From the NCBI GenBank assembly GCA_030426085.1, contig JAUHYW010000055.1, positions 1 through 64,000 on the forward strand: DNA of 64,000 nt. The letters are read 5' to 3'. Shown piece after piece: positions 32,802 through 38,898 of this stretch (position 1 is the stretch's first letter; each line of letters starts with the position of its first letter). The position numbers were made by a program, and so were the translations under genes. The DNA is from a bacterium. Its GTDB lineage: Bacteria; Myxococcota_A; Bradymonadia; UBA7976; UBA1532. Below the pieces are notes generated by a model. That model did not search any database, had not been told where the DNA came from, and saw only the letters and a list, made by a program, of their open reading frames with translations.

Positions 32802-35800
32802 ATGGCCCGTCGCAAGAAGAAATCCGGCCGCCGCCGGCCGCCCCGCGTCGCCGGCTCCAAGGCGCCCCAGCGCGCAGCCGAGCCCCCCGAGCCGCGCCCG
32901 GCCGACGCGCCGGTCGATCCGCTCGCCGCCCGGCTCGGCGCTCTGCGGGCGCGGTTGCTGAAGGGTGACGTCGACGGCGCGCTGGCCGCGGTCGACGCCT
33001 GGCTCGCCGAGCTGGCCCGCCCGGCCCCCGCCGAGTCGCCGCCCGAGGCCGCGTCAGAGCCCGAGCCCGAGCCCGAGCCCGCGCCCGCGCCCGCCGATCC
33101 CATCGCCGCCGGCCTGCTCCAGCCGCTCGACGCCCCCGGCCCCCGCTTCTCGGTCCTGATGGCGGCCTACAACCGGGCCCACCTCATCGGCGAGGCCATC
33201 GAGAGCGTGCTGGTCCAGGGCTTCGCCGACTGGGAGCTGATCATCGTCGACGACGGCTCCACCGACGCCACCCCCGAGGTCGTCGGCCGCTTCGCCGCCG
33301 CCGAGCCCCGCATCCGATACGTGCGCAAGCCGCGCAACGAGGGCCGCTCGCCGACCCGCAGCCGGGCGGTGGCCGAGGCCCGGGGCGAGTACGTGCTGTG
33401 GATGGCCGACGACGACCTGCTGGCCCCCGATCTGCTGGCGACCTACGACGCGGCGCTGCGCGAGACGCCGCACGTCGACGTCATCTACGGCAAGCTCCAG
33501 CTCTTCGAGGGCGACCGGGACCTCGACGTCTACACCCCCAACGACTGGACCGGCCGCGAGCGGCGGCTGCTGGGCGCCGAGCTGCACGGCTCGTGCGTGC
33601 CCGACGGCGGCACGGCGACCCGGCGGGCGCTGTATGCCCGGGTCGGCGCCCCGATCTACGACCCCGAGTTCACCCGGGCCCAGGACTACGAGCTGTGGAC
33701 CCGCCTGCTGCCCCACGCCCGGGTGCGCATGCTCGACCGGGTGGTCTACCGCTATCGCAAGCACGACGGCGGCACCTCGTGGGGCCCGTTCGTCGACCTG
33801 AGCTACGACTCCAAGATCATCCGCCGGCACCTGTCGCGGCACCCGCTCGAGGACCTGTTCGTGGGCCTCGACTGGACCGATCCGCCCGGCGCCCGGCGGG
33901 CGGCGATGGCCCAGGTCGGGCGGCTGATGCTCGAGTACCAGGACCCGCACAACGCCGAGCGCTTCCTGGCCGCAGCGGCGGCGTCGGGGGTCGATCCGGA
34001 CCTCGTCGAGCAGCGGGTCCGGGGCCGGCTGATGGCGGGTGATCGGGCGGGCGCGGGGCGGATCGTCGACGGGTTCGTGGCCGACTGGCCGGGGCATCAC
34101 CCGCTCGCCGCGCGCCTGCGAGCGCAGATCGACGCCACCGCCGAGCTGGATCGGGTCGGCCGGGCGGCCATCGCCGCCGGGCGCCCCAGCGAGGCCGAGA
34201 AGCGGGCGGTGGCCCATCACAACCGCTACGGTCTGGGGCATGACGTCTGCCGGCTGCGGGCCGGAGCCCGGCTGGCGGGCGGCGATCGGCGGGAGGCCCT
34301 GTGGTTTCTGTGTCAGGCGGCCCGGATGGCGGTGGGCGACGCCGAGTCCACCGCGCAGGCCCGGGCGCTGGCCGAAGAGCTGGGCGTCGAGGGGCCGAAG
34401 GTCGACATCGAGGCCATGCGCCGCCGGCTGACCGAGGTGTTCGTCGAGCCGACGGCCGACCCCTGCCCCGGGGCGGGGCCGACCTCGATCAGCGCGGTGA
34501 TCGTGGCCCGCGGGGGCGACGTGCGCCGGGCCGTGCAGAGCGCCCTGGACCAGACCCGGGCGCCGCGGGAGATCCTGCTGGTGGGCGCCGAGAGCCCCGA
34601 TCCGCGGGTCCTGACGGTGGCCGCCGACGGTGATCCGCGGGCGGCGGGGCTCGCCGCGGCGACCGGAGACGCCGTCGCCTGGCTGACGACCGACGCCGGC
34701 TGGACCCCGCAGCACCTCGCCCGCCTCGGCGCGGCCCTCGACGGCGGGGCTCAGGCGGCGTGGGGCGACGGCCACCGCCTCGATCCGGAGACCGGCGAGA
34801 CGACCTGCCGCCCGCCGGCCGGGGTCGATCGGGCCCGGCTGCTGGCAGACGACCTCATGCCGCTGTGCGCGCTGATGCACCGCCGCGGGCGGGCCCCGCA
34901 TCCGGTCGAGGGGCCATACGCCGACTGGATCTACGCGCTCGATCTGGTCTGGGGCCTCGACCGGGAGGCCGATCTGGTGCGGGTCGGGGCGCCCACCTGG
35001 GTCGGGCCGCCGCCGGTCGAGGGGCCCGCGCCCGGCGACGCCGAGGGCCGCCGAGCGCTGGAGCGGGTCTTCGCCCGCCACCCGACGCCGCTGCTCTTCG
35101 CGCCCGCCGCCCGCGCCCGTCAGGCCGAGCGCCTGCGCCCGCTGGGCGTCGACTGGCCGCTGCGAGGGCGCACCGGGGTCGTGATCGTGGGCGGCGACGA
35201 CCCGGCGGTGTTCGCCGAGACCCTGACCGCGGTCGAGGCCGGCACCCGCTGCCCGCACGCGGTGGTCGTGGTCGCCGACGGCCCCTCGCCCGCGACCCGG
35301 GCGGCCCTGATCGCGCGCTGCGCCGGGCACACGCTGGTCACCACGCCCCGCCGGCTGGGCCCGGCCAAGGCGTTCAACCTGGGGCTGGCCCGGGCCGGCG
35401 GCGATCGGGTCGCGATCCTGCGGGCCGGGGTGACCCCGGCGGACGGCTGGCTGGGGCGCATGCGGTGGTGGCTGGCCGAGGGGCCCGAGGCGCTGGCCCT
35501 GGCCCTGCCGGCGGGCGCCGACGGCCCCGAGGCGCGGGTCGAGCGCCCCGATGATCGGGCCCTGCTGGTGACCCGGGCCGCCCTGGACGCGGTGGGCGGC
35601 GCCGATCTGGCCCTCGACCCGACCCTGGCCCTCGACGACTGGCTGCTGCGCCTGCGCCGGGCGGGCTTCGGCTGGCGGGCGACCGACGTGGCGTTCGAGG
35701 GCCTGCCCCAGCGCTACGCGACCCCGGCCGATCCCGGCGCCGCGCCCCGCTTCCGCGCCCGCTGGGGCGCCCTGCCGGTGGGCGATCGGCTGCCCGACCT

Positions 35801-36272
35801 GCCCCCGCCCACCGGCGCGCCGCTGTATCAACCCTACGGCGCCGAGGAGGGTGATCGCTTCGACGTGCCCCCGGTCGCAGTGCACGACGGCGAGGGCGGC
35901 TCCCGGGTCCTGATCCGACCCCCGTGGCGCGACGCCGACGCCCGCCGGGCGCTGCTCGACGCGCTGGCGCCGCTGCCGTCTTCGATCCGGGTCTGGCTGC
36001 GGGTCGCGCCGGGCGAGGGCCCCGCGGCCCGGGACGCCTTCGCCGCCGGGCCCGCGCTGGACGCCCCGCTGTGGATCATCGACGCCCCGCTGGCCCCCGA
36101 CCGGGAGGGCGGCTTGATCGTGGCGGCCGACGCGGTCTACGTCGACGACCGCTGGCCCGACGCCGCCGACCGCGTGCGGCAGGCCTACGACTGCGCCCGC
36201 CCGCCCCTGCGCACCCCCGACGCGCTGCGCCGCTGGGCCGCGTCCGCCGACGCCTCGATGGAGCGCGCATGA
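32802..36272 (+). CDS. Multi-module GT2 glycosyltransferase
   Basis: 1156 aa. A basic Lys/Arg start and a Pro/Glu linker precede a complete GT-A domain: SVLMAAYNRAHLIGEAIESVL (117-137), ELIIVDDGSTDATPEVV with DDG 150-152, and the metal motif DDD 203-205. A helical region follows. Two more GT-A-like modules begin near residue 560 (SAVIVARGGDVRRAVQSALDQTRAPREILLVG) and 790 (GVVIVGGDDPAVFAETLTAVEAG, LGPAKAFNLGLARAGGD), both without a DxD, so they may be inactive. It probably glycosylates a protein or envelope glycan. The stop overlaps the next gene (ATGA), so its product is likely a partner. Confidence 0.8.
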   Translation: MARRKKKSGRRRPPRVAGSKAPQRAAEPPEPRPADAPVDPLAARLGALRARLLKGDVDGALAAVDAWLAELARPAPAESPPEAASEPEPEPEPAPAPADPIAAGLLQPLDAPGPRFSVLMAAYNRAHLIGEAIESVLVQGFADWELIIVDDGSTDATPEVVGRFAAAEPRIRYVRKPRNEGRSPTRSRAVAEARGEYVLWMADDDLLAPDLLATYDAALRETPHVDVIYGKLQLFEGDRDLDVYTPNDWTGRERRLLGAELHGSCVPDGGTATRRALYARVGAPIYDPEFTRAQDYELWTRLLPHARVRMLDRVVYRYRKHDGGTSWGPFVDLSYDSKIIRRHLSRHPLEDLFVGLDWTDPPGARRAAMAQVGRLMLEYQDPHNAERFLAAAAASGVDPDLVEQRVRGRLMAGDRAGAGRIVDGFVADWPGHHPLAARLRAQIDATAELDRVGRAAIAAGRPSEAEKRAVAHHNRYGLGHDVCRLRAGARLAGGDRREALWFLCQAARMAVGDAESTAQARALAEELGVEGPKVDIEAMRRRLTEVFVEPTADPCPGAGPTSISAVIVARGGDVRRAVQSALDQTRAPREILLVGAESPDPRVLTVAADGDPRAAGLAAATGDAVAWLTTDAGWTPQHLARLGAALDGGAQAAWGDGHRLDPETGETTCRPPAGVDRARLLADDLMPLCALMHRRGRAPHPVEGPYADWIYALDLVWGLDREADLVRVGAPTWVGPPPVEGPAPGDAEGRRALERVFARHPTPLLFAPAARARQAERLRPLGVDWPLRGRTGVVIVGGDDPAVFAETLTAVEAGTRCPHAVVVVADGPSPATRAALIARCAGHTLVTTPRRLGPAKAFNLGLARAGGDRVAILRAGVTPADGWLGRMRWWLAEGPEALALALPAGADGPEARVERPDDRALLVTRAALDAVGGADLALDPTLALDDWLLRLRRAGFGWRATDVAFEGLPQRYATPADPGAAPRFRARWGALPVGDRLPDLPPPTGAPLYQPYGAEEGDRFDVPPVAVHDGEGGSRVLIRPPWRDADARRALLDALAPLPSSIRVWLRVAPGEGPAARDAFAAGPALDAPLWIIDAPLAPDREGGLIVAADAVYVDDRWPDAADRVRQAYDCARPPLRTPDALRRWAASADASMERA

Positions 36273-38629
36273 GCATCAGCCCCGCCGCCCGCCGCCTCGC
36301 CGACGCCGAGGCCCGCGCCGCGCTCGCCGCCCGCAAGGCGGCCGTCGTCGACGCGCTCGACCGCATCCAGAAGGCGTTCGACCCCCCGCTGAGCAACGGC
36401 GAGCTGGCGCTGGGCCTCGAGCTCCAGGTGTTCGAGATCGGCCGCTTCCGCAGCCCGGCCCCCCGGTTGCGGGCGGCGCTGCCCGACAGCTTCTCGATGG
36501 CGCTGATCGAGGGGCTGGTCGAGGGGCGGCTGCTGCCGGCGGTGCTCGACGACCCCCGGGCGAGCAAGCGGGTGTTGCAGCTCTGCACCCCCGAAGAGGC
36601 GGCCCGGCTGGGTATGGAGTGGGAGATCCGCAACCTCGCCGGGGGCCCGATCCCCGAGCGGCGGGGCACCTGGGACGAGGACGACGCCTGGGATCTCTTC
36701 GGCGACGGGCGCCCGGTGGCGCTGCCGGTGGGTCCGGGGGTGAGCGGCGAGGCGGTCGCGCGTCCGCCGCTGTCGATCGGCCCGGCCGACGACCCGCTCG
36801 TGATCTCGCCGCTGGGCCTGGGCGCGATGCGGCTGTCGACCGCTGGCCGCCCCGACGCGGCGCAGGCCCGGGCGACGCTGCACGCCGCGCTCGACGGGGG
36901 CATCACCTTCATCGACACCGCCGACGTCTACGCGCTCGACGAGGGCGACCTGCACCACAACGAGCGCCTGATCGCGGCGGTGCTCGCCGAGCGCGACGCC
37001 GAAGAGCGCGACCGGGTCGTGGTGGCCACCAAGGTCGGCCTGATCCGGCGGGGCGCCCGCTGGCTGCCGTGCGGCGATCCGGACCACATCACCGCGGCGG
37101 TCGAAGAGGCGCTGAAGGCCCTCGGGCGCGAGCGGCTCGATCTGGTCCAGCTCCACGCCGTCGACCGCAACGTGCCCATCGAGCGCAGCGTCGAGGCGCT
37201 CGACGCGCTGCGGCTGCGGGGCCTGATCCGCCACGTCGGGCTGTGCAACGTCGACGTCGATCAGATCACCGCCGCCCGCCGGGTGGCCCCGATCGTCAGC
37301 GTGCAGAACGCCTGGAGCCCGCTGGACAAGGCGGCCTTCACCAAGGGCGTCGTCGAGGCGTGCCGCGGGTGGGGCATCGCCCGCATCGCCCACTCGCCGC
37401 TCGGCGGGCACAAGCGCGGTGGCCGGCTGGGCAAGGACGCGGTGCTGAAGGGCGTCGCCGACGCGCGCGGCGCGACGCCCGAGGCGGTGGCCCTGGCCCA
37501 GCTCATGGACGCCGGCTTCGTGCCCATCCCCGGCGCGTCGCGGCCCGAGACGGCGGCGGCGAGCGCGGCGGCGATGGCGCTGCACCTCGAGCCGGCCGAT
37601 CACGATCGCCTCGACGCCCGCTTCCCGCCGGTCGCCGCCGAGCGCCCCCCGGTCTTCGCCGGCGGCGCGGCCCCCGAGATCGTGATCGTCATGGGGCCCC
37701 CGGCGGCGGGCAAGAGCAGCCGGGTCGAGCCGCTGGTGGCGATGGGCTATCACCGCCTCAACCGGGACGAGATCGGGGGCAAGCTCGACGACCTCATCCC
37801 CCACATCGACGCCGGCCACAGCGCGGGGCACCGGCGGTTCGTGCTCGACAACACCTACCCCGACCGGGCCTCGCGGGCGGCGGTGCTGGCCAAGGGCGCC
37901 GAGCTGGGCCTGCCGGTGCGCTGCCTGTGGATCGACGCCTCAGTCGAGCAGGCCCGGTTCAACGCCGCCCGGCGCATCTTCGGCCGCTACGGGCGCATGC
38001 TCGACCCGGCCGAGCTGGCGGCGGCGGGCAAGACCGACGTCAACACCTTCCCCCCGGTGGCCATCGCCGCGTGGTTCCGCCGCTTCGAGGCCCCGTCCAC
38101 CGAGGAGGGCTTCACCGCCGTGGTGCGGGCCCCGTACGTGCGCACGCTGGGTCCCGACTACCGCCACCGGGCCCTGATCCTGGATTACGACGGCACCCTG
38201 CGTCAGACCCGCAGCGGCGCGCCCTTCCCCCGGGCGCCGGCCGACGTGCTGGCCCTGCCCGGCCGGGCCGAGGTGCTCGCCCGGTTCCGCGAGGCCGGCT
38301 GGCGGCTGCTGGGGGTCTCGAACCAGGGCGGGGTCGCGGCGAATATGCTGACCTACGAGATGGCGCTGGCCGGCATCGGCGAGACCCAGAAGCAGCTCGG
38401 GCTGCGCATCGACACCCGCTTCTGCCCCCACCCCGCCCGGCCGATCAAGTGCTGGTGCCGCAAGCCGCTGCCCGGGTTCGCGGTGGAGTTCATCGAGCGT
38501 CACCGGCTCGACCCGGCCCGCTGCATCTACGTCGGCGACATGCGCTCCGACGCGCAGTTCGCGGCGGGGGCCGGCTTTTGCTACTTCGACGCCGATCCCT
38601 TCTTCGCCGACCCCCCGCCGGTGGACTGA
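36269..38629 (+). CDS. Three-enzyme fusion: aldo/keto reductase + PNKP-type kinase + HAD phosphatase
   Basis: 786 aa. Residues 1-165 are unassigned. Residues ~170-450 are a full aldo/keto reductase with the Asp216-Tyr221-Lys255-His296 tetrad (FIDTADVY, VATKVG, VQLHAVD). Residues ~470-620 form a P-loop kinase: GPPAAGKS (476-483), YHRLNRDEIGG, VLDNTYPDRASRA and the C-terminal FRRFEAPSTEEGFTAVV, close to the kinase of polynucleotide kinase-phosphatases. Residues ~634-786 are a HAD phosphatase of the HisB/GmhB/PNKP branch: LDYDGTL (Asp639, Asp641), SNQGG, a zinc loop CPHPAR...CWC (Cys719, His721, Cys728, Cys730) and GDMRSD. All catalytic motifs look intact. ATGA-overlapped with the glycosyltransferase. 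Substrate unknown: polynucleotide ends or a sugar. Confidence 0.82.
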   Translation: MSISPAARRLADAEARAALAARKAAVVDALDRIQKAFDPPLSNGELALGLELQVFEIGRFRSPAPRLRAALPDSFSMALIEGLVEGRLLPAVLDDPRASKRVLQLCTPEEAARLGMEWEIRNLAGGPIPERRGTWDEDDAWDLFGDGRPVALPVGPGVSGEAVARPPLSIGPADDPLVISPLGLGAMRLSTAGRPDAAQARATLHAALDGGITFIDTADVYALDEGDLHHNERLIAAVLAERDAEERDRVVVATKVGLIRRGARWLPCGDPDHITAAVEEALKALGRERLDLVQLHAVDRNVPIERSVEALDALRLRGLIRHVGLCNVDVDQITAARRVAPIVSVQNAWSPLDKAAFTKGVVEACRGWGIARIAHSPLGGHKRGGRLGKDAVLKGVADARGATPEAVALAQLMDAGFVPIPGASRPETAAASAAAMALHLEPADHDRLDARFPPVAAERPPVFAGGAAPEIVIVMGPPAAGKSSRVEPLVAMGYHRLNRDEIGGKLDDLIPHIDAGHSAGHRRFVLDNTYPDRASRAAVLAKGAELGLPVRCLWIDASVEQARFNAARRIFGRYGRMLDPAELAAAGKTDVNTFPPVAIAAWFRRFEAPSTEEGFTAVVRAPYVRTLGPDYRHRALILDYDGTLRQTRSGAPFPRAPADVLALPGRAEVLARFREAGWRLLGVSNQGGVAANMLTYEMALAGIGETQKQLGLRIDTRFCPHPARPIKCWCRKPLPGFAVEFIERHRLDPARCIYVGDMRSDAQFAAGAGFCYFDADPFFADPPPVD

Positions 38630-38898
38630 CGGGCCTCGAACGCCGCCTGGAGGGCGTCCACCGTCGGCGGATCGTCGAGCACGGTGCGACACGCGATCTG
38701 CTTGTGCTCGTCGGTGATCTCTTCGTGGCGGGCGACCATCTCGGCGTCGACGAACGCGACGCAGTCGGCCTCGCGGCCGTTCTCGCAGATCTCGGCGGCC
38801 AGGGCGCTGCACGGCGCGGTGAAGCCGCCCCCCCGCAGCGCGAACACGGCGATCAGCGCGGCGAGCGCGAGCAGCGCGACGAGGACGATGCGCTTCAT
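38581..38898 (-). CDS. Small secreted or membrane-anchored protein
   Basis: 105 aa. One hydrophobic segment (IVLVALLALAALIAVFAL) at the N-terminus serves as anchor or signal, followed by a region with three or four Cys (PCSALAAEICENG, DCVAFVD, IACRTVLDDPP) and a charged tail. The last 49 bases overlap the 3' end of the convergent fusion gene, encoding a low-complexity STGGGSAKKGSASK tail. GGAGG lies before the ATG at 38898. I do not recognise the family. Confidence 0.6.
   Translation of the reverse strand: MKRIVLVALLALAALIAVFALRGGGFTAPCSALAAEICENGREADCVAFVDAEMVARHEEITDEHKQIACRTVLDDPPTVDALQAAFEARQSTGGGSAKKGSASK

Follow-up and report, generated by a model that had tools for sequence, protein, structure and literature searches.

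What does an enzyme act on that joins, in a single polypeptide, an aldo/keto reductase (AKR), a P-loop kinase of the polynucleotide kinase-phosphatase (PNKP) type and a HAD phosphatase? This question is raised by a gene in the stretch analysed here (the window: 64,000 nucleotides, positions 1 to 64,000 of contig JAUHYW010000055.1, assembly GCA_030426085.1, from a bacterium of the Myxococcota_A). The source assembly, of 10.1 Mb in 178 contigs, was taken to be a metagenome-assembled genome. The gene runs from an ATG at 36269 to a stop at 38629 as one open reading frame (ORF) of 786 codons without an internal stop. The original prediction, made from the letters alone, had described a fusion of the three enzymatic parts, and Pfam and TIGR matches located all of them within the one ORF; a further N-terminal domain of about 145 residues had been overlooked. 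The gene and its domains are as follows.

36269..38629, + strand: fusion gene (N-terminal domain, AKR, kinase and HAD), 786 aa
36269..36703, + strand: N-terminal domain, residues 1-145, conserved and without assigned function, standing before the AKR
36794..37624, + strand: AKR13-like aldo/keto reductase domain, residues 176-452, with the tetrad D216, Y221, K255 and H296
37667..38152, + strand: PNKP-type P-loop kinase domain, residues 467-628, with K482, D500, R536, R569 and the EGF tail
38153..38629, + strand: HAD-IIIA phosphatase domain, residues 629-786 with the stop codon, with the zinc loop C719-H721-C728-C730

Each of the three enzymatic parts keeps its catalytic residues in the window protein, as had been claimed. 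The reductase matched Pfam Aldo_ket_red (PF00248) with 183.6 bits (residues 181-450) and, with its D-Y-K-H tetrad, belongs to the aldo/keto reductase superfamily. The kinase matched AAA_33 above cut-off (34.9 bits, residues 472-569), retains K482, D500, R536 and R569, and has the P-loop, the NRD general base and the DNT motif of PNKP-type kinases; PNKP was its best solved match, and this, with the EGF tail, bears out the earlier assignment. TIGR01663, the model for PNKP, matched best over residues 467-623, in the kinase half, with 78.1 bits, far short of its cut-off of 502.8 bits, and its matches within the genome were confined to the fusion gene. Two Pfam models matched the HAD part above cut-off, HAD Hydrolase with 28.2 bits and PNK3P with 23.7 bits, the latter marginally so (gathering score 22 bits; the phage homologue L134 scored 35.2). 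TIGR01656 (histidinol-phosphatase domain) and TIGR01662 (HAD-IIIA) matched at about residues 634-770, and the score for TIGR01662 (60.3 bits, cut-off 44.6) identified a HAD-IIIA core with the HisB/GmhB-like zinc loop that had been noticed earlier. The more specific models stayed below their cut-offs: PRK08942 (63.6 vs 178) and TIGR01261 (25.1 vs 140) for GmhB and HisB, and TIGR01664, the DNA 3'-phosphatase equivalog domain (22.1 vs 107.65 bits). The HAD catalytic residues D639, D641, K732 and D757 are present; the active site is thus intact in the window protein, although in roughly half of the family, as that protein alone could not show, it is broken.

To see how often the fusion recurs, the kinase-HAD alignment was used to search (E 1e-10) 377 genomes that belong to the phylum and were taken from a larger group. 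Matches were found in at least 129 of the 377 genomes; among the matches listed, to which the following counts refer, most spanned the HAD alone, a generic family, and the kinase was covered at 40 places in 35 genomes, all of which were fetched as loci (numbered with the prefix L). Of the 40 kinase ORFs, 33, from 29 genomes, also had the AKR in the same uninterrupted frame, and reductase and kinase were direct neighbours in every one of these 33. Of the remaining seven, four were cut at a contig end (L021, L074, L081 and L084), and in three of these four genomes the N-terminal and AKR half sat at another contig end (L022, L105 and L106). Counted by genome, the six of the 35 outside the 29 comprise three that genuinely have no reductase at this place and three interrupted by contig ends. 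A sister assembly (L017) encoded a full-length orthologue with 85 % identity and the same architecture, which also occurred twice in another family, and the aligned relatives of the fusion ranged from 85 % down to 35 % identity. The idea that separate genes were joined by sequencing or assembly error could draw on the 178-contig assembly; it has next to no probability, since a full-length orthologue exists elsewhere, the same order recurs at many more loci and the ORF is uninterrupted. The fusion is therefore neither chance nor misassembly, and the proposition that its homologues are never fused is likewise dismissed by the 33 ORFs. No earlier report of it was found in the open-licence literature searched. 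Three plasmid records were matched, each over the HAD part only.

Conservation was strongest in the reductase and the kinase. All 34 of the reductase rows had the complete AKR tetrad, and the lysine and the general-base aspartate of the kinase were invariant in all 40, with L073 the one row departing at the aspartate of the DNT motif. By contrast, when the HAD residues were tabulated for 38 of the 40 kinase ORFs (all but L093 and L094, which lay outside that alignment), 20 rows had a complete D-D-N-K-D set and 18 a broken one, the residue columns in degenerate HADs being alignment-dependent. The zinc ligands C-H-C-C were kept in all 18 of the broken rows and in 36 of 38 overall; L077 and L086 had lost them and kept the catalytic set. 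It seems from this pattern that the zinc knuckle serves structure or binding in its own right, because all four ligands persist where the catalytic set is broken. Two forms of the protein could be distinguished, one with a full HAD and usually the N-terminal domain (absent from L079 and L082), and one without that domain in which the HAD active site is broken and the HAD often shortened (for example L023:4102-5907, L089-L092 and L095-L104). A quick tree of 77 kinase sequences grouped all 40 bacterial rows on the same side of a branch with 97 % support in the Shimodaira-Hasegawa-like approximate likelihood ratio test (SH-aLRT). One change on this tree suffices for the broken-HAD group; the loss may have been a single event, and its 18 rows do not count as independent.

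The N-terminal domain had no Pfam match up to an E value of 5. It was found in 15 ORFs from 14 of the 377 genomes, with 38-82 % identity to the window copy across families; the AKR followed in 15 of 15, and 12 ran through kinase and HAD in frame, the other three reaching a contig end. A prediction of its structure, from the window and L017 sequences only, was mostly helical at low confidence (mean pLDDT, the predicted local distance difference test, 47.9 for the domain and 42.5 for the whole protein), too low for a fold search. Its reading as an XRE-type helix-turn-helix was rejected, with an hhalign probability of 0.7-0.8 % against HTH_3 and no Pfam match. In PHROGs, neither this domain nor the kinase-HAD half was matched at E 0.001.

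Among solved chains, the kinase family profile scored best with five mammalian PNKP sequences (94.6-95 bits), followed by two fungal P-loop kinases (about 48 bits) and a bacterial chain deposited as a metallophosphoesterase (about 25 bits), which we take to be the kinase of a bacterial Pnkp. T4 Pnkp and Pnkp1 reached 21-22 bits, in the P-loop region only. The order of kinase then phosphatase is that of T4 Pnkp, as originally predicted, though among solved chains the closest in sequence is mammalian PNKP. D500, in the NRD motif, aligned with PNKP D396, whose mutation to asparagine is described in one report as abolishing kinase activity (PMC13066744).

These likenesses and differences set the fusion apart from each known system. 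T4 Pnkp and the PNK-HAD proteins of jumbo phages also place a kinase before a HAD phosphatase in one chain, but have neither the AKR nor the N-terminal domain, and the phage Pnkp labelled T4-type matches Pfam HAD_PNKP, which the window protein did not. Eukaryotic PNKP (TIGR01663) is the closest solved kinase and shares the NRD and DNT motifs and the EGF tail, but has the reverse order of phosphatase then kinase and no AKR, and its full-length model falls far below cut-off on the window protein; its phosphatase is not known to have a zinc loop. The HAD-IIIA phosphatases GmhB and HisB-N share the core and the C-x-H ... C-x-C loop with the HAD of the fusion, which is, unlike them, joined to a kinase and an AKR and broken in its catalytic set in 18 of 38 rows. 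AKR13 enzymes (AKR13B2 and perakine reductase) and pyridoxine 4-dehydrogenase, the nearest solved chains to the AKR family profile, have its fold and tetrad but are stand-alone reductases of small molecules. The bacterial RNA repair complex Pnkp1-Rnl-Hen1 presumably does a similar kind of job; in contrast to it, the window protein has a fused AKR, and a non-exhaustive scan of the flanks of its gene revealed neither a ligase nor a methyltransferase as partner.

Phages, too, have the kinase-HAD half, there as a gene by itself, whose product of about 311 aa shows the same domain order and the zinc loop. Three of 50,697 phage records matched the kinase-HAD query: one of 595 kb over 95 % of the query at 44 % identity, one of 462 kb over 94 % at 28 % identity and one of 17 kb over 57 % at 28 % identity. 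Scans of virus contigs yielded many further matches, from which a set of 58 loci was compiled, leaving out the HAD-only loci L168-L171 and the earlier copies L124-L133. The kinase-HAD gene was called in 51 of the 58, of which 37 were non-redundant at 95 %; 15 of these 37 lay on records of at least 200 kb, the others on shorter contigs that may be fragments.

Three kinds of genes recurred near the phage gene. They comprised RNA repair (RlaP, PF09414 RNA ligase and T4-type Pnkp), ADP-ribose metabolism (PARP and ADP-ribosylglycohydrolase) and salvage of nicotinamide adenine dinucleotide (NAD), the last represented by nicotinate phosphoribosyltransferase (NAPRTase), phosphoribosyl pyrophosphate (PRPP) synthetase, NadE and CinA, together with an isochorismatase-like protein below cut-off and a NUDIX protein taken for a nicotinamide mononucleotide adenylyltransferase. 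Within 9 kb, RNA-repair genes were present in 13 of the 37 loci, NAD genes in 13, ADP-ribose genes in nine and any of the three in 26. In 20 records, a window half a record away from the locus served as control (in three of them the kinase-HAD gene was uncalled and the centre of the locus was used instead). Locus and control counts were 9 vs 2 for RNA repair, 5 vs 1 for NAD, 3 vs 1 for ADP-ribose, 13 vs 4 for any of these and 8 vs 0 for RlaP alone, in a comparison that leans towards enrichment because the families were picked for their recurrence. Adjacency to an RNA ligase was dropped as the chief argument, since distances within records were mostly large, and a 415-aa phage cluster considered as an Rnl1-like ligase had no Pfam match and was left out of the ligase count. 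In single loci, the NAPRTase gene overlaps the start of the kinase-HAD gene (L125:3829-5927), and NadE (L134:6013-9589), CinA/PncC (L128:4346-5921) or a PARP with WGR (L129:4995-8559) lies beside it. T4-type Pnkp stood within 9 kb of the PNKP-like kinase-HAD in the phages L145, L148, L160, L184 and L193, which suggests that the two do non-redundant jobs.

The reading that we favour, with a probability of roughly 0.4, is that of a nucleic-acid end-healing enzyme in which the AKR reduces an aldehyde at a strand end, the kinase acts on a 5'-OH and the HAD on a 3'-phosphate. End-healing by the kinase and phosphatase parts, judged from their sequences, is moderately supported, given that PNKP is the top solved match, D500 corresponds to D396, PNK3P passes its threshold, the HAD family profile also matches PNKP phosphatase and the phage kinase-HAD genes are relatives. 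The RNA-repair genes near those phage genes likewise speak for it, as does a review of jumbo phages that assigns PNK-HAD proteins to RNA repair and counter-defence (PMC7824862). That the substrate is a nucleic acid, that the reductase meets an aldehyde end and that the N-terminal domain has a part in this we infer. The reductase would use NAD(P)H to convert an oxidised 5'-aldehyde end to a 5'-OH, the kinase would make this a 5'-phosphate and the HAD would remove the 3'-phosphate of the same break, so that one polypeptide would make the break ligatable, with the N-terminal domain as a docking or binding part. Oxidation at C5' leaves a 3'-phosphate opposite the 5'-aldehyde. The 5'-aldehyde that arises by oxidation of C5' in DNA or RNA would be the most economical substrate of the reductase, because its reduction yields the 5'-OH that the adjacent kinase needs. 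If reductase and kinase act in turn on one end, both would be kept while the HAD, serving the other end, could be lost. In RNA, a study of hydroxyl-radical cleavage describes the 5'-aldehyde as the major terminus, from attack at C5', and its conversion to 5'-OH by borohydride (PMC4227780). The original interpretation as a whole is partly supported; its suggestion that such an enzyme might reduce an aldehyde end while the phosphate ends are reset is better grounded through the phage homologues and the chemistry of 5'-aldehyde breaks. The specific proposition that one polypeptide directly reverses C5'-oxidised breaks in DNA or RNA, by giving the 5'-OH (AKR), the 5'-phosphate (kinase) and the freed 3' end (HAD), we consider unlikely. 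It would be new repair chemistry, as the section of a review on 5'-aldehyde ends describes long-patch excision only.

Several observations weigh against end-healing. The HAD family profile scored higher with GmhB (85 bits) than with PNKP phosphatase (62-65 bits), the nearest characterised AKRs are small-molecule enzymes and the median net charge of the kinase is only about +2 to +3. Three kinase ORFs (L072, L073 and L083) had no AKR in frame or nearby; of ten neighbours of these genes, none pointed to nucleic acids and four had no Pfam match. Among the genes of the 58 phage loci there was no match to the AKR or the N-terminal domain (E 1e-10), and the control comparison is biased as described above. 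PF09414 matched in 18 of the 20 records, in just three of them within 10 kb of the kinase gene, and the model also hit long ORFs in which DNA ligases may be encoded. Loss of the HAD active site takes a single change on the kinase tree and does not stand for 18 separate events, although the broken-HAD group was unsupported as a clade. In bacteria, no recurrent partner that would explain the fusion was seen across 43 loci (the neighbour families being unannotated), and none of 11 phage-side gene families was matched in the bacterial neighbourhoods by a single-seed search at E 1e-3. To our knowledge, no activity has been described for any member of the family.

The main rival is metabolism of a small molecule, a sugar or a NAD precursor, which we regard as possible: the AKR would reduce a sugar-like, nucleoside or pyridine aldehyde to the alcohol, which the kinase would phosphorylate, and the HAD would trim a phosphate, one form of this being pyridine-nucleotide salvage. 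It draws on the same GmhB/HisB-like HAD and on the relationship of the AKR to AKR13B2, perakine reductase and pyridoxine 4-dehydrogenase, and also on the several phage homologues that stand beside NAPRTase, PRPP synthetase, NadE or CinA/PncC, on the NAD-salvage counts (13/37 loci; 5/20 vs 1/20 in controls) and on a glycosyltransferase directly upstream within the genus of the window. Yet the kinase is PNKP-type down to its C-terminal tail, with PNKP far above other solved kinases, and the phage loci hold RlaP, RNA ligases and PARP as well. A single-seed search found no NAD-salvage gene beside the bacterial fusions, where sugar-type neighbours were not scanned broadly, and in a review of jumbo phages the PNK-HAD proteins and NAD synthesis are treated as RNA-repair and counter-defence functions (PMC7824862), which would account for the NAD genes in such phages.

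A further alternative retains end-healing but not reduction of a strand end: the AKR would sense redox state, or act as a regulator that binds NADPH, and so tune the kinase. Such a role has been proposed for Kv-beta. The invariable adjacency of reductase and kinase in the 33 shared ORFs would suit it, and the Kv_beta model gave a weak match (28.1 bits against a cut-off of 365.4). The full tetrad in 34 of 34 rows suggests, on the contrary, selected turnover, although Kv-beta also keeps its catalytic residues; we judge this alternative improbable.

The gene upstream of the fusion overlaps it by its stop codon.

32802..36272, + strand: family-2 glycosyltransferase gene, 1156 aa, upstream of the fusion gene, the stop overlapping the fusion ATG at 36269-36272

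The sister genome shows the same overlap (L017:6001-6004). As none of the other 41 loci compared yielded this gene, the glycosyltransferase probably lies outside the system. On the other side, a convergent short gene of 105 aa (window 38581-38898, - strand), which has a relative in L017 as well, covers the final 49 bases of the fusion gene. In one relative, an overlapping gene of 110 aa (L022:1250-1582, - strand) that resembles DUF952 precedes the fusion. Over the 43 bacterial loci, the commonest neighbour family occurred in seven, the next in four and three, and each of the rest was common to a pair of loci; the longest member of the commonest family is protein-kinase-like by appearance, not from an annotation search.

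Covalent linkage of an oxidoreductase to an end-healing kinase would tie reductive chemistry to strand-break repair. Even if the substrate is small, the fusion represents an uncharacterised enzyme family, present as such in 29 genomes of one phylum and with its kinase-HAD half in phages. If the reductase does act on strand-end aldehydes, it would provide cells with an excision-free route for restoring oxidised 5' ends, and the laboratory with a reagent for turning such ends ligatable.

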